A DNA stretch of 64,000 bases, taken from Mesorhizobium sp. YM1C-6-2. Its GTDB lineage: Bacteria > Pseudomonadota > Alphaproteobacteria > Rhizobiales > Rhizobiaceae. The stretch's first letter is position 1; every line of letters starts with the position of its first letter. The DNA lies in the NCBI RefSeq assembly GCF_003666685.1, contig NZ_RCIZ01000007.1, positions 62,001-126,000 on the forward strand, read 5' to 3'. Below are positions 1-12,260 of the stretch, in pieces. Below the pieces are notes generated by a model that saw nothing but the letters and a program-made list of their open reading frames with translations, searched no databases and was not told where the DNA came from. The position numbers and the translations under genes were made by a program.

Positions 1-80
1 TCGACGACCTCTCCGTCGGCGACCCGCTTGCAGTCGGCTGGCCCGAAGAGGCGGCAATCATCCTCGGGGAGGACGCGTGA
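1..80 (+). CDS. ABC transporter ATP-binding protein, C-terminal end (partial)
   Basis: The window opens inside a reading frame (frame of base 3) that ends at the TGA at 78-80. The 25 visible residues (DDLSVGDPLAVGWP, then a short acidic tail) resemble the end of the TOBE domain of importer ATPases of the PotA/UgpC type, where a 'GD.v.v.w' strand closes the protein. The stop overlaps the next ATG by one base (TGATG), so transporter and amidohydrolase are probably translated together. This suggests that the operon imports its substrate by ABC transport. The family call rests on a very short fragment. Confidence 0.55.
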   Translation, partial: DDLSVGDPLAVGWPEEAAIILGEDA

Positions 81-1564
81 TGGACGCCAAGAAGAAATGC
101 GCGCTGCTCGTTCGCAACGGCTACGTCATCACCATGGACGACGACGCCACCATCTATGAGCACGGCGCGGTGGCGGTCGGCGAGAACGGCCGCATCCTGG
201 AAGTCGGCGACGACGCGGAAATCTCGGCGCGGTACGACCCCGGCAGGGAGATCGATGCGCAAGGCGCACCCGTACATCCGGGCTTCGTCGAATGCCACCT
301 CCACGCATCCTACCATCTGTTCCGCGGCGTGCTGCCGGACCAGCTCGTGGAAAGCGAGTCCTTCGACACGTTCGAGGGCCATTTCTACAACACGGTGAAC
401 GACGAAGAGGAGTATCTCTCGGTCCTGCTCGCCTGCATGGAGCTGGTGCGCAATGGCAGCACCTGCTTCATGGAAGCCGGGACCATCCTGACGCCCGAGA
501 TGGCGGCGCGCGCGGCCAGGGAGGTCGGCGTCCGCGCCATATTGGGCGACGCCTTCATCTGGGATCAGCCGCAGGGCTTTGCGCAAGGCAAGACGGACGC
601 GGCCGAAGACGGCTGCTTGACGTGCGCGGCCCAGGCGAAGCTGCACACCGAGCTGCGGCGCGCGCCGAAGACCCGCGCCGAGGCGCTGGCCTCGCTGGGC
701 ACCGAGCTCCAGCGGAATTCGGATCCGGACGCGCTGGTGACCGGGCATGTCGCGGTGCTCGGCCTGGGCACGGCCAGCGAAGAACTGATGATGGAGGCCA
801 AGGCCTGCGCGGACGCCGCGTCGGTGACGCTGAACATCCATCAGTCCTACAGCCCGGCCGACACCGAGGCGGACCGCAAGCGGTTCGGAAAGGACCCTCT
901 CGTCCATCTGTTCGAGACGGGTTTCCTCGACCGCAATGTCACCTTCGGACATGCCAATCACCTGACTGACGCCGAATGCGAGGCCCTGCTGGACAGGGGC
1001 ACGTCGATCGCATGGGCTCCGGCAGCCTCGATGATGTGGGGGCACGGCAGCTCGCTGCACGGACGCCATGCGGAACTGTGGCGGCGCGGCGCCAACATCG
1101 CGCTCGGCTCGGACTCTCCCAACTGGTCGAACGACTTCGACCTCTGGCGGCAGGCGAACCTGGCCGTCATGGCGGCCCGCGACGTCCATATGGACCGCAC
1201 CTTCCTGATCGCCGAAGACGGCCTCTATATGGCCACGCGCGGCGGCGCGCGGGCGGTCGGGCTCGAGAAGCAAGTCGGCTCGCTGGATGCCGGCAAGCGG
1301 GCCGACATCGTCATCCATACGCTCGATCGCCCGGAGATGGTGCCGAGCACCAACATGATCCGCAACCTGTTCTACGCGTCGCGGTCGAAGTCCGTGCATA
1401 CGGTCATCATCGACGGACGCGTGATCCTGGAGGAAGGGCGTTTCACCAAGCTCGACGAGCGCGCCATCTACGCGGAAGTGCGCAAGGCTTCGCAGTCGCT
1501 GCTCTCCCGGATGGGCCATACGGTCGAAGCCAACTCAGTGCCGCGCATGCGGCGCCCTGCCTGA
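80..1564 (+). CDS. Amidohydrolase family protein (AtzA/TrzN/SsnA-like)
   Basis: A 494-residue metal-dependent hydrolase of the cyclic amidohydrolase/deaminase group. The HxH motif of strand 1 is at about residues 73-75 (CHLHASYH). Later metal or active-site residues are His ~254 (NIHQSYS), His ~291 (GHANHL) and Asp ~345 (GSDSPNW), so the metal ligands are all present. The Glu that usually follows the third His as HxxE in triazine hydrolases and cytosine/guanine deaminases is Tyr here, so an ordinary deaminase reaction is doubtful. ATG at 80 overlaps the upstream stop; a GTG at 77 is an alternative start. It is the first enzyme of the operon and probably opens or hydrolyses the imported substrate (inference). 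Confidence 0.85.
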   Translation: MDAKKKCALLVRNGYVITMDDDATIYEHGAVAVGENGRILEVGDDAEISARYDPGREIDAQGAPVHPGFVECHLHASYHLFRGVLPDQLVESESFDTFEGHFYNTVNDEEEYLSVLLACMELVRNGSTCFMEAGTILTPEMAARAAREVGVRAILGDAFIWDQPQGFAQGKTDAAEDGCLTCAAQAKLHTELRRAPKTRAEALASLGTELQRNSDPDALVTGHVAVLGLGTASEELMMEAKACADAASVTLNIHQSYSPADTEADRKRFGKDPLVHLFETGFLDRNVTFGHANHLTDAECEALLDRGTSIAWAPAASMMWGHGSSLHGRHAELWRRGANIALGSDSPNWSNDFDLWRQANLAVMAARDVHMDRTFLIAEDGLYMATRGGARAVGLEKQVGSLDAGKRADIVIHTLDRPEMVPSTNMIRNLFYASRSKSVHTVIIDGRVILEEGRFTKLDERAIYAEVRKASQSLLSRMGHTVEANSVPRMRRPA

Positions 1565-1575
1565 CGAAAACCCAG

Positions 1576-2667
1576 ATGCCGACCAATCCCGTATCCATCG
1601 AACTGCACGAGCGGATGTTCACCGAGACCGAAACGCTGCTCGCCGCAAGCGGCGCGCTTCGCGTCACCGCCTTCCGCTATCGTTCGGGCGTCGCCGCGCT
1701 GCGCGTCGAGAACGGGGCCGGGACGGCGATCCTGCTTCCCTTCCAGGGGCAGCAGATCTGGGACGCGGAATTCCTAGGCCGCCGGCTGACCATGCGCTCG
1801 ATGTTCGACGAGCCGTTGCCGACGCGCGATTATCTCAGGACCTACGGGGCGTTCTTCATCCATTGCGGCGGAACGTCGATGGGCAACCCGGGGCCGGACG
1901 ACACGCATCCACTGCATGGCGAACTGCCGAATCTCTCCTATCAGAAGGCGACGCTTGCGTTCGGCGAGGATGCGGCCGGGCCTTATGTCGAACTCAGTGG
2001 GGCAGGACGCGACACCGAAGCCTTCCACCATGACTTCGTGGCGCTTCCGCGCCTGCGGCTCCACGCAGGAGGGACATCGTTCAGTGCGGCGATCGAGGTC
2101 GAGAACCGCTCAGGCAAGCCGATGCCGTTCCTCTATCTCGCGCATATCAACTTCCTGCCCGCCAACGGCGGCGTCCTGATCGACACGGTCGGCGACGACC
2201 GGACCGATGCGGCCATTCGCGTGCCCGCGCTTGGTCCCGAGGCCAGCCATGCGGTGCGCGCTTATCACGACGCGGTGTCCGCCGATCCCTCGTCGCACAG
2301 GTCGCTGCAGGCCGGCGTGCCGGTCGAGCCCGAGCTGGTGCTGACCATGACGGCAAGAGCCGGACAGGACGGCTGGACCCATGCGCTGCATCGTCGCCCG
2401 GACGGGAGCGGCGATTTCGTGAGCTATAAGCCGTCCGAACTGCCCTATGCCGTGCGCTGGATCACGCGCAGCGAGGATCAGGACGCGCTCGGCCTCGTTC
2501 TCCCGGCGACGGCGCCGCCGGACGGGCTCGCCGCCGCGAAGCGCAATGGCCACATCGTGTGGATCGAGCCGGGCGGCTCGTTCCGGACGGAGATGACCTT
2601 CGGCGCGCTCGACCCGAAAGCGGCGGACAACCTTTCGAACATCATAGCTTCAATCCGCGGCCGTTAA
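1576..2667 (+). CDS. DUF4432 family protein (aldose 1-epimerase-like)
   Basis: A 363-residue protein that looks like DUF4432, a beta-sandwich family related to aldose-1-epimerase (galactose mutarotase). Features seen are IWDAEFLGRRLTMRSMF near residue 60, the FFIHCGGTSMGNPGPDD segment around residue 100, and a mid-protein FLYLAHINFLPANGG strand typical of mutarotase-like folds. Members often sit in sugar or polyol catabolic operons, but their reaction is rarely defined. It starts 11 bases after the amidohydrolase stop. An epimerase-like protein suggests a cyclic hemiacetal or sugar-like intermediate in the pathway (inference). Confidence 0.75.
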   Translation: MPTNPVSIELHERMFTETETLLAASGALRVTAFRYRSGVAALRVENGAGTAILLPFQGQQIWDAEFLGRRLTMRSMFDEPLPTRDYLRTYGAFFIHCGGTSMGNPGPDDTHPLHGELPNLSYQKATLAFGEDAAGPYVELSGAGRDTEAFHHDFVALPRLRLHAGGTSFSAAIEVENRSGKPMPFLYLAHINFLPANGGVLIDTVGDDRTDAAIRVPALGPEASHAVRAYHDAVSADPSSHRSLQAGVPVEPELVLTMTARAGQDGWTHALHRRPDGSGDFVSYKPSELPYAVRWITRSEDQDALGLVLPATAPPDGLAAAKRNGHIVWIEPGGSFRTEMTFGALDPKAADNLSNIIASIRGR

Positions 2668-2696
2668 TCCCAGGCCGCCAACACAAGACGGATGCC

Positions 2697-3719
2697 ATGC
2701 TCGACACTCCGCAGCACTACAACGGAAACGCCTTCACCAGTATCGATTTCGACAAGCCGGGCCGGCAGGTCGGCTTCGTCAGCATTCCCCACTCACCGCA
2801 TGACGATGCCTGGGGCGTGACGCGTATCCCGATCGCGGTGGTTGCGAACGGGACCGGCCCGACGGTGATCCTGGAGGGAGGCAATCACGGCGACGAGTAT
2901 GAGGGCCCGATCGTGATCGGCGAACTCGCCCGCGATCTGGATCCGGGCTCGATACAGGGCCGGCTGATCCTGATGCCGGCCAACAACGTCCATGCCGTGC
3001 GCGCAGCGACGCGCACGTCGCCCGTCGACGGGCTGAACTTCAATCGCGTCTGGCCGGGCGACGGGATGGGGACGATCACCCAGCAGATCGCCGCCTATGT
3101 TTCGCAATGCATCTTCCCGATGGCCGACGCGTTCCTCGACCTGCATTCCGGCGGATCGTCGCTGGACATCCTGCCGAGCGCGATCATCGAGCCGACGACC
3201 GATGCGGATCTGCATCGCCGCAACATCGCCGCCGTACAGGCCTTCGACGCGCCCTACACGGTCGTCGTCTCCAATCTCGGCGACCAGCGGACAGCCACGG
3301 CGACGGCCTGTCGCGCAGGCCTGGTCACAGTCGGCACCGAGATGCGGGGCTGCGGCACGGTCTCGCTCGACGCCCTCGAGATCTGCCGCCGCGGGGTGCA
3401 CAATGTGCTGACGCATCTCGGCGTGATGGAAGGCAGCGCCAGCCGCAGCAAGGACGGCCCCGTGCTCGAGATCGCCGGCGTCGACGCCTATGTCTACGCG
3501 CCCGTCGACGGCATATTCGAGGCCTTCCACGCCAACGGCGAAAGCGTTTCGGCCGGACAGCCGGCCGGACGCATCCACCAGACCTGGGATCTCACCGCCG
3601 AGCCGCTGACATTGCATTACCGGGTCGACGGGATCGTCTATGGCAAGCGCCATCCGGGCCGCGTGTCGCCCGGCAATTGCTGCGTCGTCGTCGCTTCGCC
3701 ATACGGGAAAGTCGCATGA
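2697..3719 (+). CDS. Succinylglutamate desuccinylase/aspartoacylase-family deacylase (DoeB-like)
   Basis: A 340-residue zinc-dependent deacylase of the M14-like AstE/ASPA family. The HxxE zinc pair lies in GGNHGDEYEG, the third ligand in DLHSGG, and the arginine region in AATRTSPVDGLNFNR. The pattern is closest, from memory, to N-acetyl-diaminobutyrate deacetylase DoeB of ectoine breakdown and related proteins. The ectoine genes doeA and eutC are not nearby, so ectoine itself is not supported. The enzyme should remove an acyl group from an amino-acid-like intermediate. Its stop overlaps the next ATG by four bases (ATGA at 3716). Confidence 0.8.
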   Translation: MLDTPQHYNGNAFTSIDFDKPGRQVGFVSIPHSPHDDAWGVTRIPIAVVANGTGPTVILEGGNHGDEYEGPIVIGELARDLDPGSIQGRLILMPANNVHAVRAATRTSPVDGLNFNRVWPGDGMGTITQQIAAYVSQCIFPMADAFLDLHSGGSSLDILPSAIIEPTTDADLHRRNIAAVQAFDAPYTVVVSNLGDQRTATATACRAGLVTVGTEMRGCGTVSLDALEICRRGVHNVLTHLGVMEGSASRSKDGPVLEIAGVDAYVYAPVDGIFEAFHANGESVSAGQPAGRIHQTWDLTAEPLTLHYRVDGIVYGKRHPGRVSPGNCCVVVASPYGKVA

Positions 3720-4660
3720 TCACGATAGCCGACATCGAGGCCGCCCGGGATCGCATCACCCCCTATGTGAGGCGCACCCCGATTCTCGAGGCATCGCTCG
3801 CGCGCGATCCAATCCCCCTGCAGGCAAGCGTGGTGATGAAGCTCGAGCTCAATCAGGTCACCGGGTCCTTCAAGGCGCGAGGCGCGATGAACCGCCTGCT
3901 CGGCACGCCGCAGGAGGAGATCAGCAAGGGCATCGTCACCGCCTCGGGCGGCAACCATGGTCTGGCAGTGGCGCGCACGGCCAAGGTGGCCGGGGTGCCG
4001 GCGGTCGTGTTCGTCCCGGAAACGGTCTCTCCTGCCAAGGTGGAAAAGATGCGCAGATGGGACGCCGACGTTCGCGTCGTTGGCACCGAGTGGAGCGTCT
4101 CCAACGACGCCGCGCACGACTATGCCCGCACCAGCGGCGCCTCTTATTTCCATCCCTTTGCCGACCCGCTGGTCGTCGCCGGACAGGGTACGCTCGGCCT
4201 CGAGATCCTGGACCAGGCATGGGATTTCGACACGATCGTCGTCGCCATTGGCGGCGGCGGACTGGTCTCGGGCCTGTCGACGGCGATCAAGGCGCGGCGG
4301 CCCGATATCCGGGTGGTCGCCGTCGAGCCCATCGGCTCGCCGACGATAAAGGCGAGCCTCGATGCCGGCGAGGTGGTGACGCTCCCCGAGGTGACGAGCC
4401 GGGTCGCCACCATGAGCTGCCGGCGCACGGACGAGCGGCTGTTCGAGATAGCGCGACGCAACATCGCCGAAGTCGTCCTGGTGTCCGACGAGGCGATGCT
4501 GGACGCATCGCGCTGGCTGTGGTTCGAATTCGGCATCGCAGCCGACCTCTCCGGCGCGGCCTCGATCGCCGCCCTCCAGAGCGGCCATCCCGCATTCAAG
4601 GACAGCAAGCGCATCTGCGCGATCATCTGCGGGGCCGGGGCGGAAGGGACGGTGTCGTGA
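3716..4660 (+). CDS. PLP-dependent threonine/serine dehydratase-like enzyme (EutB-like)
   Basis: A 314-residue fold-type II PLP enzyme. The PLP lysine is in GSFKARGA (about residue 53), the substrate-carboxylate loop is ASGGNHG, and the phosphate-binding glycine loop is GGGGLVSG. The length fits catabolic threonine dehydratases and EutB without a regulatory ACT domain. It probably carries out beta-elimination/deamination of a hydroxy or substituted amino acid released by the upstream deacylase. It is translationally coupled on both sides (ATGA at 3716, GTGA at 4657). Serine racemase or diaminopropionate-lyase activity cannot be excluded. Confidence 0.85.
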   Translation: MITIADIEAARDRITPYVRRTPILEASLARDPIPLQASVVMKLELNQVTGSFKARGAMNRLLGTPQEEISKGIVTASGGNHGLAVARTAKVAGVPAVVFVPETVSPAKVEKMRRWDADVRVVGTEWSVSNDAAHDYARTSGASYFHPFADPLVVAGQGTLGLEILDQAWDFDTIVVAIGGGGLVSGLSTAIKARRPDIRVVAVEPIGSPTIKASLDAGEVVTLPEVTSRVATMSCRRTDERLFEIARRNIAEVVLVSDEAMLDASRWLWFEFGIAADLSGAASIAALQSGHPAFKDSKRICAIICGAGAEGTVS

Positions 4661-5583
4661 AGATATTGGTGGCGGGGGGCGGTGCATTCGGCAAGGAGCA
4701 CCTGAAGACGCTCACCGCGATCGGCGGCCTGACGCTCGCGGTGGCCGAGCCCCGCCACGACGAATTGGCGGCGCTGCGGCGCACATTCGGGCTTACCGAC
4801 GGAGATGCGGACGCGTTCGCGCTGCTCGAAAGGTTCGAGCCGGACGGGATCGTCATTGCGACGCCTGCCAAGGCGCACGCCCCGCTTGCCACCGAAGCGC
4901 TGAAGCGCGCAATACCCGTCCTCGTCGAAAAGCCGGTCGCGCCCGACGCCGCCACCATGCGCCTTCTTGTCGATGCGGCCGCGGCCAGCCGGGCCTTCCT
5001 CCTGCCGGGTCACATCCTGCGTTTCTCTTCTGCCCACCGCCGCCTGCGCGACATCCTCGCCGGCGGCGAGATCGGCACGCTCTTGCAGTTCAACTCGCGC
5101 CGCTACCGGGATGCCAGCCACGCGGAACGCTATACAGACGTCGATCCGGTGCTGATGACCATGATCCACGATATCGACCTGGCGCTCTGGTTCAGCGGCG
5201 CGCCGGCCGTGTCGGCCGACGCCTTCCGGCGCCCGGCCGGAACGGCGCGTTCGATAACGACGGCGCAGTTGCATACTTCGAGCGGCGCGACCTGGCAGCT
5301 CTCCACGGCCTGGCTTCATCCCGGGCCGGACTGCCCGCCCGACAGAGTCGAGATCGTCGGAACGAAGGGAATCGCCGAACTCGCGGCCGGAAGCCATATT
5401 GACATCTACGGAGCGGAATACCGCCGCATCCCTTTGGAGGACATCGACGATCCGCTGCGCGCGGAACTCGACTGTTTCCTCCAGAGCATCCGTTCCGGAA
5501 AACCCAGCGCGCCGGTCGGGCCGCAGGACGCCTATGAAGGGCTGCTCGCCGCCGAAATGGTCGTCGAGGCGCTCTCGCGATGA
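4657..5583 (+). CDS. Gfo/Idh/MocA family oxidoreductase
   Basis: A 308-residue NAD(P)-dependent dehydrogenase. The N-terminal Rossmann fold carries GGGAFG (about residues 7-12). The family EKP motif appears as VLVEKPVA near residue 90, with the catalytic lysine, and a helix with HDIDLALW follows near residue 170. The family oxidises sugars, polyols and amino-sugar derivatives to ketones or lactones. The GTG start overlaps the previous stop (GTGA) and the stop overlaps the next ATG (ATGA). Followed by a lactonase-like enzyme, it fits an oxidation-then-lactone-hydrolysis step. Confidence 0.85.
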   Translation: MKILVAGGGAFGKEHLKTLTAIGGLTLAVAEPRHDELAALRRTFGLTDGDADAFALLERFEPDGIVIATPAKAHAPLATEALKRAIPVLVEKPVAPDAATMRLLVDAAAASRAFLLPGHILRFSSAHRRLRDILAGGEIGTLLQFNSRRYRDASHAERYTDVDPVLMTMIHDIDLALWFSGAPAVSADAFRRPAGTARSITTAQLHTSSGATWQLSTAWLHPGPDCPPDRVEIVGTKGIAELAAGSHIDIYGAEYRRIPLEDIDDPLRAELDCFLQSIRSGKPSAPVGPQDAYEGLLAAEMVVEALSR

Positions 5584-6419
5584 TCGTCGATGCGCACCTG
5601 CATCTCTTCCGCCACGGCTACGGCCAGTTCGGCTCCGGAAAATCGCCGCTCGGCGAACTGTCCGACCTGGAGGCCTACGAAGGCCTGCGGGAGCGACACG
5701 GCATTGGAGCCGGATTGGTCGTCTGTTACGAGGACCACGGCATCGATCCGGCGAACAACGCCTATGTCCGTGAACTCGCCGCCGGGCGGCCGTGGATACA
5801 CAGCGTCGCCTATCTCCGCCCCTCGCCAGCTCCCACACGCCGGCAGCTGGAGAGCCTGATCGCGGCGGGGCATTGCGGCATCGCGCTCTATCTGCCGGAC
5901 GAAGCCGCCGCAGTGGCGGTTCTCGAATGGCCTGCGGAGCTTTGGCAGGCGCTTTCCGACGTCCACGCCGTCATTTCGCTCAATGCGCGCCCGGAGGGGA
6001 CGAAACGCCTGCGCCCGCTTGTCGAGCAGTTCGGGAACTGTGCATTCATATTCTCGCATCTCGGCCTGCCCGGGCGGCACGAAACGGCGCCTGACCCGAC
6101 AGCAGCGGCGGAACGCCTGGGTCCACTGATCGACCTTGCAGCCCTCCCCAATGTGGGCGTCAAGCTCTCCGGCCTTTATGCGATCGACCCTCGTCCGCCG
6201 CATGCCACCGCGCTGCCTTTCATCGACCTCCTGCTGGAGCGGTTCGATGCTTCCAACCTGCATTGGGGCTCGGATTTCAGCCCGGCACTGGAGTTCGTCT
6301 CGTTCGAGGAGACGATGGAGCTGCCGAGACTGGCGTCACTGCCGGAGCGGGACCGCGCGCTGATTCTGGGTGACGGCTTGTCGATCAAATTGCGGCGAGC
6401 CGGGCAGGCAAACCCCTAG
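5580..6419 (+). CDS. Amidohydrolase-2 family protein (lactonase-like)
   Basis: A 279-residue TIM-barrel hydrolase of the amidohydrolase-2 (PF04909) type. The N-terminal metal motif is DAHLHLF, with later residues in IFSHLGLPGRHE, VKLSGLY and the terminal LHWGSDFSP (final Asp). The family includes lactonases of sugar-acid pathways and pyrone-dicarboxylate hydrolases as well as decarboxylases. It is the last gene of the operon: 196 bases follow before the next gene on the same strand. Placement after the Gfo/Idh dehydrogenase favours lactone hydrolysis (inference). Confidence 0.8.
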   Translation: MIVDAHLHLFRHGYGQFGSGKSPLGELSDLEAYEGLRERHGIGAGLVVCYEDHGIDPANNAYVRELAAGRPWIHSVAYLRPSPAPTRRQLESLIAAGHCGIALYLPDEAAAVAVLEWPAELWQALSDVHAVISLNARPEGTKRLRPLVEQFGNCAFIFSHLGLPGRHETAPDPTAAAERLGPLIDLAALPNVGVKLSGLYAIDPRPPHATALPFIDLLLERFDASNLHWGSDFSPALEFVSFEETMELPRLASLPERDRALILGDGLSIKLRRAGQANP

Positions 6420-6615: not shown

Positions 6616-7209
6616 ATGCTTCGCAGACTCTACGACTGGACGCTGTCGCTCGCCGCGCGCAAATCCGCCGAATACTGGCTTGCCTTCATCGCCTTCATCG
6701 AAAGCTCGGTCTTCCTCGTCCCGGCCGACGTTCTCTATTTGCCGATGGCGATCGCCCGGCCGGACCGCGCCTATCGCTACGCCATCGTGGCGACGATCGC
6801 CTCGGTGCTCGGCGGCATCGCCGGCTGGATGATCGGGCACTATGCCTATGAGGCGTTCGCGAAGCCTGTGCTGGAATTCTACGGCAAGCTCGACGACTTC
6901 GAGGCGCTGATGCCTACCGACGGCTCGGCGACCGGCTTCATCCTGCTGATGCTGGTGACCTCAGGCCTCGCCCACCTGCCGCCGATCAAGGTGGTCACCA
7001 TCCTCGCCGGCGTCATCAGTTTCCCGCTCGGCTGGTTCATCCTGTCGGCGATCATCGCGCGCGGTGCGCGCTTCCTGTTCCTGGCATGGCTGCTGCGCCG
7101 GTATGGCGAGCCGATCCGGCATTTCGTCGAGGAGAGGCTCGGACTGCTGGCCGCCGCCGCCGCCGCCGTCCTCATTTTGCTCTACTTGCTCGTCAGATAC
7201 CTGCACTGA
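6616..7209 (+). CDS. YqaA/DedA-type membrane protein
   Basis: A 197-residue inner-membrane protein resembling the YqaA branch of the DedA/VTT family. It has an amphipathic N-terminus, the ESSVFLVPADVLYLPMA segment near residue 30 (the conserved E...P.D re-entrant motif) and hydrophobic helices near residues 55-75, 100-120, 130-155 and 175-195. DedA-family proteins take part in lipid carrier recycling and membrane homeostasis. The dsbB-like gene follows after 38 bases on the same strand. The 196-base gap upstream (6420-6615) shows no gene or RNA that I can recognise. Confidence 0.8.
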   Translation: MLRRLYDWTLSLAARKSAEYWLAFIAFIESSVFLVPADVLYLPMAIARPDRAYRYAIVATIASVLGGIAGWMIGHYAYEAFAKPVLEFYGKLDDFEALMPTDGSATGFILLMLVTSGLAHLPPIKVVTILAGVISFPLGWFILSAIIARGARFLFLAWLLRRYGEPIRHFVEERLGLLAAAAAAVLILLYLLVRYLH

Positions 7210-7247
7210 CACTGCCGGCCCTAGCCGCAACCGCCCGGATCAGACCG

Positions 7248-7757
7248 ATGACGTCATACGCCCCCGCCGACAACCAGCAGCGCAACACAGCAATCTTCCT
7301 GACCGTCGCGATGGCGGCGGTGGTCGGCGGAGCGCTCGGCTTCGAGCACATCGGCCACTACATTCCCTGCAAGCTCTGCCTGGAGCAACGCATTCCCTAC
7401 TATGTCGGCGTGCCGGTCATGGCGCTCGCCGCGATCTCGGCCACGCTGCGCTGGCCGCCGGTGGTGACCCGCCTGCTGCTGCTCGTCGGCGGCTTGCTGA
7501 TGGCCTGGGGACTGTTCCTGGCCGTGCAGCACTCCGGCGTCGAGTGGGGCTGGTGGGCTGGCCCGACGGATTGCGGCGTGGTCGCCCCCGTCGATACGGG
7601 CGGCAAAGGCGTGCTCGACGCCATCAACACTTTCGTGCCGCCCTCCTGCGACCAGGCGGCGCTGCGCGTGCTCGGCCTTTCCTTCGCGGGGTGGAATGCG
7701 ATCGCCAGCCTGATCCTCGCCGTCGTGGCGTTCAGGGGCGCTTTCAAGAAAGCCTGA
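7248..7757 (+). CDS. dsbB: Disulfide bond formation protein B family
   Basis: A 169-residue four-helix quinone reductase of the DsbB family. The quinone-proximal CxxC is at 41-44 (PCKLC) followed by EQR; the second periplasmic pair is Cys109 and Cys134 in the loop between helices 3 and 4. DsbB reoxidises periplasmic DsbA and passes electrons to ubiquinone. No dsbA lies nearby. The ATG at 7248 was chosen because the longer upstream frame is only a shadow of the YqaA gene. It converges on the HNH gene, with 13 bases between stops. Confidence 0.85.
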   Translation: MTSYAPADNQQRNTAIFLTVAMAAVVGGALGFEHIGHYIPCKLCLEQRIPYYVGVPVMALAAISATLRWPPVVTRLLLLVGGLLMAWGLFLAVQHSGVEWGWWAGPTDCGVVAPVDTGGKGVLDAINTFVPPSCDQAALRVLGLSFAGWNAIASLILAVVAFRGAFKKA

Positions 7758-7770
7758 AGGGAGCCGCCGG

Positions 7771-8328
7771 TCAGGGCTCCAGTTCGACATCCCAGTAGAG
7801 ATAGTCCATCCAGCTTTCGTGCAGATAGTTGGGCGGGAACAGCCGGCCGTTATTGTGCAGGTCGTGCACGGTCGGCTTGTAGGGCTTCTGCAGCGGCCAC
7901 ATCTTCGCGTGAGCCGGCATCATGCCGCCCTTCCTGAGATTGCAGGGCGAGCAGGCGGCGACCACGTTCTCCCACGTCGTCGCGCCGCCCCTGTGGCGGG
8001 GGACCACATGGTCGAAGGTCAGGTCCTCCGGCGTGCCGCAATACTGGCACTGGAAACGGTCGCGCAGGAAGACGTTGAAACGCGTGAATGCCGGATGGCG
8101 GGACGGCTTCACATAGCTCTTCAGGCTGACGACGCTCGGCAGCCGCATCGAGAAGGTGGGCGAGGACACCTGATGCTCGTATTCGGCGACGATGTTCACG
8201 CGGTCGAGAAAGACCGCCTTGATGACATCCTGCCAGGACCAGAGCGACAAGGGGTAGTAGCTGAGCGGCCGATAGTCGGCGTTCAGGACCAGCGCAGGCA
8301 GCCCGTCTGGGGACACCGCGATCGTCAC
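7771..8328 (-). CDS. HNH endonuclease family protein
   Basis: A 185-residue protein with a C-terminal HNH beta-beta-alpha-metal domain. Structural zinc cysteines are 94/97 and 126/129. The catalytic DH pair is at 106-107 (FDHVVPRHRGG), Asn at 121 (WENVV), and the last motif residue is Asn130 (PCNLRKG). The N-terminal ADYRPLSYYPLSLWSWQDVIKAVF block is typical of a widely conserved housekeeping HNH subfamily rather than of phage terminases. The biological role is unknown; no methylase or phage genes are near. Confidence 0.85.
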   Translation of the reverse strand: MTIAVSPDGLPALVLNADYRPLSYYPLSLWSWQDVIKAVFLDRVNIVAEYEHQVSSPTFSMRLPSVVSLKSYVKPSRHPAFTRFNVFLRDRFQCQYCGTPEDLTFDHVVPRHRGGATTWENVVAACSPCNLRKGGMMPAHAKMWPLQKPYKPTVHDLHNNGRLFPPNYLHESWMDYLYWDVELEP

Positions 8329-8458
8329 TGGCGATATCCTCCTTTGGCCTCAATGCGATGCGCGCAGATATTGTAGGCAGGAGGTGACAGAAATGTGAAG
8401 CGGTCCGCGCGCCACACGTACCGGAAAAAAGTCACAAATCTGGCCGTTCCAGCGCAAT

Positions 8459-9100
8459 TTACGAAGGCGGCGCGCCCTCCCTTCCTTTGATTTCACGATA
8501 ATAAGCCCAGAAAAGGCGTGACGCCACCCCCCGCCAGGGGGACCATGATTCGGCGATTTCGATGAGCGCCTTCTCGCCCGGCCGGGGATCGATGCCGAGC
8601 GCATGACCGACCGCGCTCTGCAGCGCGACGTCGCGGGCGGGGAAAACGTCGGGATGGCCGGCAGCGGACAACAGATAGACTTCGGCGGTCCAAAGCCCGA
8701 CGCCGGGAACGGCGGTCATGGCGTCGATCGCAGCCTTTGCGTCGAGATCGCAGAGGCCGGCGAGGTCGAGGCCGTCCCGCACGGCCATGGACACGGCAAG
8801 CACGGCGCGCTGCTTGGGACGGGAGAGACCCGCCTCGCGGAAAAGCCCCTCGCCCGCGGCAAGCAGCACCTCAGGAGTGAGCGGATCGGCAAGCCTCACA
8901 AGCCGGCCGAAGATCGCATCGGCGCTGGCGCGGGAAACCTGCTGCGAGACGACGATCGAGACCAGGCTCGCGAAGCCGGGTTCGCTGCGGCGCAGCTGCA
9001 CCTCCCCCGCGGCGGCGCGCACGCGCACCAGCCGGGGGTCGGCCGCGCACAAGGCGTCCAGCCCGGCTGCTATGTCGTCGAGGGTCGATATACGCTGCAT
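8459..9100 (-). CDS. DNA-3-methyladenine glycosylase II (AlkA family)
   Basis: A 213-residue base-excision DNA glycosylase of the helix-hairpin-helix superfamily. The HhH motif is near residues 128-144 (VPGVGLWTAE) and the catalytic Asp is 157 (PARDVAL). It lacks the extra N-terminal domain of E. coli AlkA, as is common in alphaproteobacteria. The ATG at 9100 was chosen because residues encoded upstream are low-complexity arginine-rich read-through without similarity to the family. It diverges from gluQ across 95 bases. It should remove alkylated purines from DNA. Confidence 0.85.
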   Translation of the reverse strand: MQRISTLDDIAAGLDALCAADPRLVRVRAAAGEVQLRRSEPGFASLVSIVVSQQVSRASADAIFGRLVRLADPLTPEVLLAAGEGLFREAGLSRPKQRAVLAVSMAVRDGLDLAGLCDLDAKAAIDAMTAVPGVGLWTAEVYLLSAAGHPDVFPARDVALQSAVGHALGIDPRPGEKALIEIAESWSPWRGVASRLFWAYYREIKGREGAPPS

Positions 9101-9195
9101 CGCGCTTCCGGTGGGTCCTTGTGAAGTCCGGACGCGAGAGATAGCAATCCGTCGATAACGGCAACAACCCGAAACCGCGTCACTCCTGACAGGCG

Positions 9196-10071
9196 ATGAC
9201 CAGGCCAACCTTCCGCTTCGCGCCGAGCCCGAACGGGGAACTGCATCTCGGCCATGCATATTCGGCGCTGCTCAACGCAGCGATGGCGCGGAAGACCGGC
9301 GGCAGACTGCTGCTGCGCATCGAGGATATCGACCTGACGCGCTGCACGCCGGAATTCGAGGCCGGCATCTTTCGCGATCTGGAATGGCTCGGGATCGAGT
9401 GGGAAGAGCCGGTGCGCCGCCAGTCCGAGCACCTCGCCGAATATGGCGGGCTGCTCGATCGCCTGATCGCCTGGGAACTCGTCTATCCAGCCTTCATGAG
9501 CCGGGGCGAGACGCGCGCCCACATCGCGCAGGCGGAAGAAAGCGGCAGGACATGGCCGCGCGACCCGGACGGCGTGCCGCTCTATCCCGGCCTGGACAAG
9601 GCGCTCAGCGCATCCGAACGCAAGAAGCGGATGGCGAACGGCGAACCGTTCGCCTGGCGGCTTGACACTGCCGCCGCGATGGCGCGTGTCGACAAGCCGC
9701 TGACATGGACGGAGTTCGCCGGCCCGGACATGGATACGGCACGGAAGGTCGAAGCAAGGCCGGATTTGTGGGGCGACGTGGTGCTGGCCCGCCGTGACGT
9801 GCCGACCAGCTACCACCTATCCGTCGTCGCCGACGACGCGCTGCAGAGCATAACCCATGTGGTGCGCGGCCTGGACCTCTTTGCCGCTACCGGCATTCAT
9901 CGGCTTTTGCAGGAACTGCTGGAACTGCCGGAGCCGGCTTATTTCCACCACCGCCTGATCCCCGGCCCGGATGGGCGCAAGCTCTCCAAGAGCTTTCGCG
10001 ACACCGGGCTTTCCGCGCTGAGGAGCGCCGGGCGGACGCCGGACGAAATCAAGGCAATGCTCGAAGCGTGA
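9196..10071 (+). CDS. gluQ: Glutamyl-Q tRNA(Asp) synthetase
   Basis: A 291-residue truncated GluRS paralogue without an anticodon-binding domain. It has the class I signature HLGH at 17-20 and the KMSKS-like KLSKS near residue 263. GluQ attaches glutamate to queuosine at position 34 of tRNA-Asp, which links it to the queuosine-precursor transporter at 46592. The zinc knuckle of E. coli GluQ (C-x-C after YP) is absent: the segment here reads YPAFMSR, so the enzyme is probably zinc-free. The stop abuts the convergent downstream gene. Confidence 0.92.
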   Translation: MTRPTFRFAPSPNGELHLGHAYSALLNAAMARKTGGRLLLRIEDIDLTRCTPEFEAGIFRDLEWLGIEWEEPVRRQSEHLAEYGGLLDRLIAWELVYPAFMSRGETRAHIAQAEESGRTWPRDPDGVPLYPGLDKALSASERKKRMANGEPFAWRLDTAAAMARVDKPLTWTEFAGPDMDTARKVEARPDLWGDVVLARRDVPTSYHLSVVADDALQSITHVVRGLDLFAATGIHRLLQELLELPEPAYFHHRLIPGPDGRKLSKSFRDTGLSALRSAGRTPDEIKAMLEA

Positions 10072-10359
10072 TCAGATGCGGGCCGCGGCGGCCTTGATCA
10101 GCGCCAGCAGGCTCACGGTCGTGAAGGCGCCGCCAAGTCCCCAGGCGACCGCAAGCTTCAGATCCCGCAGGCTGATGCCCCAGCTATTGGCAATGATGAC
10201 CGCCAGGAAGAAACCTAACGTGAAGAGCATCATGTTGCCGGTCGGGCCGAACCCGTCCTCGTGCATGATCGCGTCGAGCGCCGCCCCGAAAAAGAACGCA
10301 AGGACGGCAACGGTCGCCACCGCCATCATCAGCCAGCCTGGCTCCAGGTTCCAGATCAT
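10072..10359 (-). CDS. Small three-helix membrane protein, unknown function
   Basis: A 95-residue hydrophobic protein with predicted membrane segments near residues 9-28, 41-60 and 68-90, separated by a short acidic loop (MHEDGFGPTGN). I do not recognise a family. Its stop lies directly against the gluQ stop (convergent, no gap). The ATG at 10359 is followed by a plausible first helix. Coding is supported by composition and good membrane topology, not by similarity. Confidence 0.65.
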   Translation of the reverse strand: MIWNLEPGWLMMAVATVAVLAFFFGAALDAIMHEDGFGPTGNMMLFTLGFFLAVIIANSWGISLRDLKLAVAWGLGGAFTTVSLLALIKAAAARI

Positions 10360-10524
10360 GTCCGCCCCCTTCCGGCGCGCGCGGCACGTATCGCAACCCT
10401 GAACCCGTGATGTGCTTGGGGTTCAATCCTCCTTATAGTATGGATCAATTGTTTCGCTTTGCTTGACCGATTGATCGGCATTAGAGCGAACCGGTCCACG
10501 TTTCTCCAACCTTCCGCGCCAGCC

Positions 10525-11412
10525 ATGATCACCGCCAGGGGGCTCGTACCCGCACTTTTCGTGTTTCTCTGGGCGACCGGTTTCATCGGCGCGCGCTACG
10601 CCATGCCCTGGGCGGAACCGTTCAGCTTCCTGGCGGTGCGGTTCGTGCTGGCATTCGCCATGCTGGAGGTTGCGGCCGCGCTGTTCAGCAAGCGCCGGCT
10701 CGCATGGCCGGACATCCTGCATGCCGGCGTCGCGGGGGTACTGATGCACGGCGTCTATCTCGGCGGGGTGTTCTGGGCCATCCACCGCGGCCTGCCGGCC
10801 GGGCTTTCGGCGCTGATCGTCGGCCTGCAGCCGCTGCTCACCGCGATCCTCGCCGGCAGACTGCTCGGCGAACGCATCCTGCCGCGCCACTGGGCCGGGC
10901 TGGCGGCAGGCTTCGTCGGCGTCGCCATCGTGCTGGCGCCGAAGCTCGGCGCGATCCAGGACGGCGTCACCTGGGCGACGCTCGCGGCATCCGTCGTCGC
11001 GGTGATAGGCATGAGCGTCGGAACGATCTGGCAGAAGCGCTTCCTTGCCGGCAGCGACCTCATCGCCGGCACCTGCTGGCAATATGCCGGCGGCGCGCTG
11101 GTGATGATCATCCTCTCCTTCGCCTTCGAGACCCAACAGTTCACGCTCAACGGCGAACTCGTCTTCGCCATGGCCTGGCTGGTGCTCGTCCTGTCGATCG
11201 GCGCCATCGGACTGCTGATGCTGATGATCCGCGACGGTGAGATGTCCAAGGTCTCGTCGCTCTTCTACCTGGTGCCGGCGGTGACGGCGCTGATCGCCTG
11301 GGCGCTGTTCGGCGAAGAACTGACGCTGGTGCAGATCGGCGGCATGGCGCTGGCGACCTTCGGCGTCGCGCTCGCCACCCGGCGCACTCCCGCGCCCAGC
11401 GCTGCCGCCTAG
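10525..11412 (+). CDS. EamA/DMT-family transporter
   Basis: A 295-residue protein with about ten hydrophobic helices arranged as two EamA repeats. Landmarks are FLWATGFIGARYAMP at the start (repeat 1), LQPLLTAILAGRLLGERI, and ALFGEELTLVQIGGMALATFG (repeat 2). Members export amino acids or other metabolites; the substrate is not predictable. ATG at 10525 matches the normal EamA N-terminus; the frame extends upstream to a TTG at 10459 but adds a non-hydrophobic leader. Its end overlaps the convergent YihY gene by four bases. Confidence 0.85.
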   Translation: MITARGLVPALFVFLWATGFIGARYAMPWAEPFSFLAVRFVLAFAMLEVAAALFSKRRLAWPDILHAGVAGVLMHGVYLGGVFWAIHRGLPAGLSALIVGLQPLLTAILAGRLLGERILPRHWAGLAAGFVGVAIVLAPKLGAIQDGVTWATLAASVVAVIGMSVGTIWQKRFLAGSDLIAGTCWQYAGGALVMIILSFAFETQQFTLNGELVFAMAWLVLVLSIGAIGLLMLMIRDGEMSKVSSLFYLVPAVTALIAWALFGEELTLVQIGGMALATFGVALATRRTPAPSAAA

Positions 11413-12260
11413 CCGGGCACCCTCGCCCGCGCCTCGAAATAGCGGCTGATCGCGGCGTTGAGTTCGCCGCCGAGGATGAAGACCATGGAGATGATGTAGA
11501 GGAAGACGACCGCGATCATGATCGAGGCAAGCCCCGCATAGGTCGTCACGTAGGATGAGAAATTATCGAGATAGGTGGCAAAGACCGTGGACCCTACAAG
11601 CCAGCCCACCAGCGTGAAGATGATGCCCGGCACGATGTCGACGAACCGCCGGTGCCCCGCCGGCAGCCAGATGTGGACCGCGATCAGGCCGAGGACGATG
11701 ACGACGGAGGCGACGACGTAGCGCCACAGCGTGATTGTGCCCAGATAGGGCTCCAGCCCCTGGAAGTTCGCCAGCGCCAGCCGCACGATGATCGGCGCGA
11801 AGACCAGAAGCACGCTGATGACGAGGAAGCTGATCGTCGCGATGAAGACGAAGGCGAGGCTCTGGATGCGCCGGTAGACGAAGGAACGGGTTTCGACGAC
11901 GCGATACGCGCGGTTGAGCGCGGTGCGCAGCGATTCGATGCCGTTCGAGGCGAAGAAGGCGGCAAGCAGCACGCCATAGGTCAGAAGGTCGCTGCGCTGC
12001 ACGGTGAGCACGTTGACGACTTCGCGCGAGATGGGTTCCGCGATCTGGGCCGGCCATGTGTCGAAGACGAGATGCACGGCCGTCTCGGCGAAAGCCTCGG
12101 CGCCGAGGAAACTGGCGAGCGTCGTAGCGAAGATCAGGAAGGGGAACAACGCCATCAGCGCGGTGATCGCCAGATGGCTCGCCATCGACCAGCCGTCGTC
12201 GTAATTGAAGTGGCCGAGCGCGTCGTAGAGGATACGCTTGAGCGCGACGATCTTGCGCAT
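11409..12260 (-). CDS. YihY/virulence factor BrkB family membrane protein
   Basis: A 283-residue inner-membrane protein with the YihY/BrkB layout. It has the SMASHLAITALMALFPFLIF first helix (about residues 24-45), the ASNGIESLRTALNRAYRV motif near residue 105, and four further helices. Most of the family have unknown function; the older label ribonuclease BN is wrong for this family. It is divergent from the SDR gene across 130 bases that show no additional gene. Confidence 0.88.
   Translation of the reverse strand: MRKIVALKRILYDALGHFNYDDGWSMASHLAITALMALFPFLIFATTLASFLGAEAFAETAVHLVFDTWPAQIAEPISREVVNVLTVQRSDLLTYGVLLAAFFASNGIESLRTALNRAYRVVETRSFVYRRIQSLAFVFIATISFLVISVLLVFAPIIVRLALANFQGLEPYLGTITLWRYVVASVVIVLGLIAVHIWLPAGHRRFVDIVPGIIFTLVGWLVGSTVFATYLDNFSSYVTTYAGLASIMIAVVFLYIISMVFILGGELNAAISRYFEARARVPG

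Follow-up and report, generated by a model that had tools for sequence, protein, structure and literature searches.

A catabolic operon was identified at the start of a 64,000-nucleotide stretch of the genome of Mesorhizobium sp. YM1C-6-2 (contig NZ_RCIZ01000007.1, positions 62,001 to 126,000; the whole stretch is referred to as the window). The operon lies on contig C51 of the 5.5-Mb genome and enters the window with the 3' end of an ATP-binding cassette (ABC) transporter ATPase gene, followed by six enzyme genes, all on the + strand (window 1-6419). The operon is a genuine bacterial nutrient-use unit. The sequences show which genes it has, how these are ordered and conserved, which residues line the active sites and how its modules associate; its reactions, substrate class and regulation we infer from these features. 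The favored reading, to which we give about an even chance of being correct, is that it takes up an N-acylated 2-amino sugar, or a conjugate of one, and breaks it down by a non-phosphorylating oxidative route. The genes within the window were assigned as follows.

1-80, + strand: PotA-like ABC ATPase, 3' end (Pfam ABC_tran and TOBE_2; TIGR01187)
80-1564, + strand: AmH1, a TRZ/ATZ-type amidohydrolase (Pfam Amidohydro_1; alignments to PDB relatives and orthologues)
1576-2667, + strand: DUF4432 protein, predicted sugar mutarotase (Pfam DUF4432)
2697-3719, + strand: AstE/AspA-type deacylase, here AstE (Pfam AstE_AspA_cat; own clade; residues)
3716-4660, + strand: PALP, predicted fold-type II pyridoxal phosphate (PLP) ammonia-lyase (Pfam PALP; PRK08246; PDB relatives; residues)
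4657-5583, + strand: Gfo/Idh/MocA dehydrogenase, here Gfo, with predicted C1 (lactone-forming) oxidation (Pfam GFO_IDH_MocA; nearest PDB chain PmdC)
5580-6419, + strand: AmH2, an Amidohydro_2 enzyme and predicted sugar lactonase (Pfam Amidohydro_2; weak matches to a fuconolactonase model and to 4dlf)

In the proposed route, a Pot-type ABC transporter would import the compound and AmH1 would cleave a C-N bond of the compound as imported, in an additional hydrolysis ahead of the main route. The DUF4432 protein would then interconvert anomers, Gfo would oxidize C1 to give a lactone, and hydrolysis of this lactone by AmH2 would give a 2-(acylamino)-aldonate. The acyl group would be stripped from this acid by AstE, and PALP would eliminate water and ammonia to yield a 2-keto-3-deoxyaldonate for Entner-Doudoroff metabolism, with the operon under the control of an IclR regulator. 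Oxidation of a 2-amino sugar to its aldonic acid gives a compound that is also an alpha-amino-beta-hydroxy acid, and hence a single 2-(acylamino)-aldonic acid best accounts for both the "amino acid" and the "sugar" parts of the gene set. The initial annotation had proposed the breakdown of an imported N-acyl amino-sugar acid, which is close to what the comparative evidence suggests. Its order of steps did not stand, because only the aldonic acid offers an alpha-amino-beta-hydroxy acid to the PLP lyase and oxidation and lactone opening would therefore precede deacylation and deamination.

Conservation and modular make-up

All seven genes of the initial annotation were present on one strand and in the order given there. 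The tight joins that it described were borne out: overlaps were found at AstE/PALP, PALP/Gfo and Gfo/Amidohydro_2 (4 bases each) and at the ATPase stop and AmH1 start (GTGATG, window 77-82, readable as 1 or 4 bases), and short gaps at the other two joins, of 11 bases (AmH1-DUF4432) and 29 bases (DUF4432-AstE). The starts of DUF4432, Gfo and the upstream genes were set by inspection. Cotranscription is probable from the overlaps and the synteny.

Extension upstream of the window (L005:9211-14080) located a divergent IclR gene, a PotD-like binding protein gene, two PotB/PotC-like permease genes and the full PotA-like ATPase gene, so that the binding protein and regulator sought by the initial annotation were both found. 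The upstream genes did not match a characterized pathway; of their products, the ATPase alone scored above a curated threshold, namely that of TIGR01187, a generic model for the polyamine-ATPase subfamily (360 bits; cut-off, 356). The transporter has the same subunit make-up as PotABCD, with an ATPase inside the polyamine subfamily, but it is part of a catabolic operon and its binding protein fell far below the PotD equivalog cut-off (70 versus 582 bits). Alignment of the binding protein with PotD indicated that Trp34, Asp168, Trp255 and Asp257 were kept, that Tyr37 was lost and that Glu171 was replaced by Gly; only Asp168 was thus retained of the two acidic amine-binding positions (Asp168 and Glu171). 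These residues, which we take to be ligand binding in PotD, may point to a ligand that carries a single amine-like group instead of a diamine. The best curated match of the IclR regulator was BhcR of the hydroxyaspartate cycle, a weak match (68 versus 350 bits).

Two congeners, L022 and L021/L029 (a Rhizobiaceae metagenome-assembled genome), carried all ten operon genes and the regulator gene in this arrangement, with 62 to 93% identity per protein in L022 and L029. Another Rhizobiales genome, L036, carried the binding protein, permeases, AmH1, DUF4432, AstE, PALP and Gfo at 44 to 78% identity, with the ATPase missing and a short-chain dehydrogenase/reductase (SDR) in the place of AmH2. The gene order is therefore preserved by more than chance.

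Comparative genomics resolved three modules within the operon, namely M1 (Pot-type ABC transporter and AmH1), M2 (IclR, AstE and PALP) and M3 (DUF4432, Gfo and AmH2). M1 was followed by DUF4432 in G428, abutted Gfo and an SDR in G296, and lay within about 8 kb of AmH2-like and DUF4432 genes in G051. DUF4432-AmH2-Gfo formed a unit of its own at L160, also in G296, near further ABC transporter and SDR genes (named by eye). AstE-PALP-Gfo-AmH2 occurred in a row in L165, without AmH1 or a Pot transporter, and L166 carried a Pot transporter with AstE, PALP, Gfo and AmH2 but without AmH1. A search of the L166 genome for AmH1 gave no match, and a cupin gene came after the ATPase there. We conclude from these two loci that the transporter goes with M2 and M3 and that AmH1 is an extra. 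Either AmH1 handles a form of the substrate not used by other carriers, or another enzyme replaces it in L166.

Orthologues of AmH1 (67 to 89% identity) were rare and patchy, being present in 5 of 397 genomes of the order, including the window's own, and in 2 of 14 genomes in one genus. The sixth match among the 397 genomes had 34% identity, and no orthologue beyond the window's own was found across a sample of the phylum. In every orthologue locus AmH1 lay directly behind the Pot-type ATPase, except in L036, which has no ATPase gene. The AstE-PALP pair, usually accompanied by a divergent IclR gene, was far more widespread than M1. A substrate that is a sugar acid and an amino acid in one molecule predicts a mixture of sugar-type and amino-acid-type transporters beside M2, and the neighboring transporters were of the polar-amino-acid, ribose, SBP_bac_1 sugar or Pot type, with a TRAP transporter nearby in L023. 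Amino-sugar genes also flanked M2 in several genomes, namely a fused NanE-NanK gene in Mesorhizobium, NagB-like and amidohydrolase genes in L038 and, at seven loci, the gene for an otherwise unannotated GH20-like protein.

These seven M2 loci encoded, next to AstE-PALP, members of a conserved family of proteins of about 550 amino acids which resembled GH20 beta-N-acetylhexosaminidases in the N-terminal part only. No Pfam match exceeded the cut-off, although matches fell just under it, and the best PDB match was a beta-N-acetylhexosaminidase (E = 0.0003). The family is possibly an undescribed family of intracellular glycosidases. Its members were as follows.

L023:15378-17030, GH20-like family
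L157:1936-3612, GH20-like family
L158:16096-17862, GH20-like family
L164:12812-14458, GH20-like family
L167:7329-9080, GH20-like family
L168:1596-3344, GH20-like family
L169:17038-18774, GH20-like family

At L023:4226-9419, directly upstream of AstE-PALP, genes for a TRAP binding protein, a glutamine-synthetase-like protein, an aldehyde dehydrogenase and an iron-type alcohol dehydrogenase suggested a route for a gamma-glutamylated amino alcohol in that genome. None of the further M2 loci examined had the last three as neighbors.

Catalytic residues of the predicted enzymes

The Amidohydro_1 domain of AmH1 scored 117 bits (cut-off, 25), and its metal ligands HxH, H and D (H73, H75, H254 and D345) were invariant; H291 was also present. 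AmH1 shares its family and these ligands with the TRZ/ATZ enzymes MTA/SAH deaminase and atrazine chlorohydrolase (AtzA). The catalytic Glu of the HxxE motif, three residues past the third metal ligand and present in both aligned enzymes, was however replaced by Tyr257 (HQSY) in all eight AmH1 orthologues, and because of this replacement AmH1 is probably not an ordinary deaminase. The structure model of AmH1 was poor (predicted local distance difference test [pLDDT] score, 38). More distant TRZ/ATZ relatives (L120 to L142; 31 to 43% identity) were multicopy in the genomes of one alphaproteobacterial family, with three or four copies in each of three genomes and two in a fourth, and mostly also lacked the HxxE Glu. 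An SDR near the AmH1 locus of G051 (L118:269-1012) passed the curated cut-off for pyridoxal 4-dehydrogenase (418 versus 325 bits).

Within M3, the DUF4432 protein had invariant His residues, and the EKP and HDID motifs of Gfo and residues H6, H8, H160 and D232 of AmH2 were likewise invariant. The DUF4432 protein matched the hypothetical aldose 1-epimerase structure 3ty1 weakly (E = 0.008), and its structure model was too poor for comparison (pLDDT, 45). The PDB chain nearest to Gfo was PmdC, a lactone-forming dehydrogenase. AmH2 matched the fuconolactonase model weakly and far below the cut-off, and its match to 4dlf was also weak. Together these enzymes would follow the logic of known oxidative aldose pathways (mutarotase-dehydrogenase-lactonase, as for L-fucose, or PmdC with PDC lactonase), in which a cyclic hemiacetal is oxidized to a lactone that is then hydrolyzed. 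Those pathways use a sugar-acid dehydratase, whereas M3 is tied to a deacylase and a PLP lyase. Literature searches on DUF4432, on N-acetylglucosaminate and glucosaminate enzymes and on N-acylmannosamine dehydrogenase yielded nothing useful.

For M2, the AstE_AspA_cat domain of the deacylase scored 116 bits (cut-off, 25). The Zn ligands H64, E67 and H150, the carboxylate-binding N116-R117 and the base E215, roles which we assign from knowledge of the family, were invariant in 17 relatives. The catalytic domain, the H, E and H ligands and the NR motif identify the deacylase by sequence as a member of the AstE/AspA superfamily. PALP had K54, the SGGNHG motif and a GGGG phosphate loop, and its PDB relatives were serine racemase and threonine deaminase. 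The family names of the initial annotation held at the Pfam level, with two refinements. PALP was closest to the generic serine/threonine dehydratase model PRK08246 (307 versus 331 bits), not to EutB, and fell below the EutB cut-off (TIGR02991; 199.5 versus 413 bits), and the deacylase fell below that for DoeB/EutE (TIGR02994; 279.6 versus 402.7 bits).

Support for the amino-sugar route and comparison with ong

The oxidative amino-sugar route is supported by the gene sets of L165 and L166, the separate unit at L160, the enrichment of Gfo genes near M2, the mixture of transporters, the amino-sugar neighbors and the intact catalytic residues, and also by the chemistry of the ong cluster of Pseudoalteromonas prydzensis. 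The ong genes degrade N-acetylglucosaminate (GlcNAc1A) by means of the deacetylase OngB, the PLP deaminase OngC and a KDG kinase, a RidA protein being needed, and deacetylation followed by PLP-dependent deamination has been proven for this substrate (PMC9537276). The predicted core chemistry of the operon is alike, in that an N-acetyl amino-aldonate would be deacetylated and then deaminated to a 2-keto-3-deoxy acid. The claim of the initial annotation that no pathway with this set had been described thus holds for the set of genes but not for the core chemistry. OngB has a barrel like that of D-aminoacylase (PMC12017989), and OngC belongs to the fold-type III PLP enzymes (PMC9537276), whereas the deacylase of the operon has an AstE_AspA_cat domain, placing it outside the OngB family, and its PALP, of fold type II, differs likewise from OngC. 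The operon adds a predicted dehydrogenase, lactonase and mutarotase, and it has a Pot-type ABC transporter in place of the SSS symporter of ong, with an IclR regulator. The operon seems to represent a separate assembly of the oxidative chitin-sugar pathway, itself described recently, with unrelated deacylase and lyase folds. A RidA gene, as in ong, also occurs near M2 in L166, where a protein with three RidA (L-PSP) stretches (L166:1411-2709), encoded beside AstE-PALP-Gfo-AmH2, recalls OngD. KDPG aldolase was encoded in all eight genomes tested; this is a common enzyme and weak evidence for use of the end product.

Gfo genes lay near M2 deacylases at 11 of 25 loci and near other AstE relatives at 3 of 39 (Fisher p = 0.001, or about 0.003 once the loci were roughly dereplicated), which is support rather than proof, the Gfo profile having been built from four M3 sequences and the loci being partly related. 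Several points, this partial relatedness among them, weigh against the route. Most M2 loci with a polar-amino-acid transporter had no Gfo gene nearby. The DUF4432 protein is predicted to be a sugar mutarotase from family resemblance only, the binding protein is PotD-like and not a typical sugar binder, and AmH1 is superfluous in the scheme, its role there being a guess. AstE/DoeB enzymes and fold-type II dehydratases mostly use 2S (L) amino acids, and glucosaminate is 2R. N-Acetylglucosamine itself therefore fits poorly, and a 2S aldonate, for example one derived from N-acetylmannosamine or from an L-amino sugar, is a more likely substrate than GlcNAc1A. A more specific proposal, which we put forward tentatively and hold to be considerably less probable than the general one, is that of a new oxidative pathway, evolved independently of ong, whose substrate is an amino-sugar conjugate so far not recognized as a nutrient of bacteria, for example, a 2S amino sugar with a cationic or amidine group. 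This pathway would be opened by the TRZ/ATZ-fold AmH1, without the deaminase Glu, through a different hydrolysis.

Amino sugars are among the large pools of organic nitrogen in soil and sea. If the oxidative amino-sugar reading is true, a second set of enzymes acting on N-acyl amino-aldonates, not homologous to the first, would be widespread in the Rhizobiales (Bosea, Methylobacterium, Microvirga, Devosia and Mesorhizobium), and an oxidative amino-sugar route would have arisen more than once. The M2 enzymes would have been hidden under names such as succinylglutamate desuccinylase, ectoine deacetylase and threonine dehydratase, annotations that would be corrected, and a role would be suggested for DUF4432.

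Alternative explanations and adjoining genes

A two-part substrate, in which an N-acyl beta-hydroxy amino acid (of the serine, threonine or hydroxyaspartate type) is joined to a separate sugar or cyclitol, is the foremost alternative, although we consider it unlikely. AmH1 would cut the joint, with the amino-acid part degraded by AstE and PALP and the sugar part by the three M3 enzymes. This would give AmH1 a natural role and would agree with the closeness of PALP to serine/threonine dehydratases, with the BhcR match of the regulator, albeit weak, and with the occurrence of M2 beside amino-acid transporters and without Gfo. The joint-cutting enzyme would however be missing from L166, which has the transporter, M2 and M3 in a genome with no AmH1 match. 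This explanation also needs two substrates where one molecule suffices, and M2 adjoins amino-sugar genes.

It is still less probable that M1, M2 and M3 serve different nutrients and have a promoter in common by history, through horizontal assembly. Each module does exist apart, M1 is patchy and M2 is common without M1, but overlaps span the module borders (PALP/Gfo and ATPase/AmH1), and the modules occurred together in at least four lineages (the window's genus, L036, L165 and L166).

An ectoine-like substrate, as offered by the initial annotation, was strongly disfavored. AmH1 would open a cyclic amidine, AstE would deacetylate in the manner of DoeB, and PALP would act like EutB on a hydroxylated diamino acid. 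Ectoine and hydroxyectoine catabolism (eutBCDE or doeAB) does pair a deacylase and a fold-type II PLP dehydratase of the same superfamilies as M2; AstE is distantly related to DoeB and PALP to EutB, and solved DoeB structures were among the best PDB matches. We rejected this pathway on the missed DoeB and EutB cut-offs and on two further results. The genome has its own eutB-eutC-eutD-eutE cluster (L028:6276-10603, about G000:C1:719,775-724,103), which passed all four equivalog cut-offs (EutE, 610.8 bits; EutB, 537.5 bits), and a tree of 89 AstE-like proteins split the PALP-adjacent and EutD-adjacent groups with 100/100 support for each. EutD/DoeA and EutC have no counterpart beside M2; EutD matches lay within 6 kb of ectoine-type loci, with one distant match (27% identity) near M2.

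Mycosporine-like amino acids, in which serine or threonine is attached to a cyclitol through an imine, were prompted by the combination of amidohydrolase and dehydratase, and no literature on their catabolism was found; this candidate was rejected because it leaves the position of M2 beside amino-sugar genes unexplained. The breakdown of nucleosides or t6A, and likewise aminoglycosides and opines as substrates, were dropped for lack of a supporting gene.

Beyond the operon, window 6616-12260 contained ordinary genes. The first encoded a VTT membrane protein (a weak VTT-domain match), and the others, named by eye, were DsbB-like, HNH endonuclease, DNA glycosylase, GluQ-tRNA synthetase-like, EamA-type transporter and YihY-like genes.

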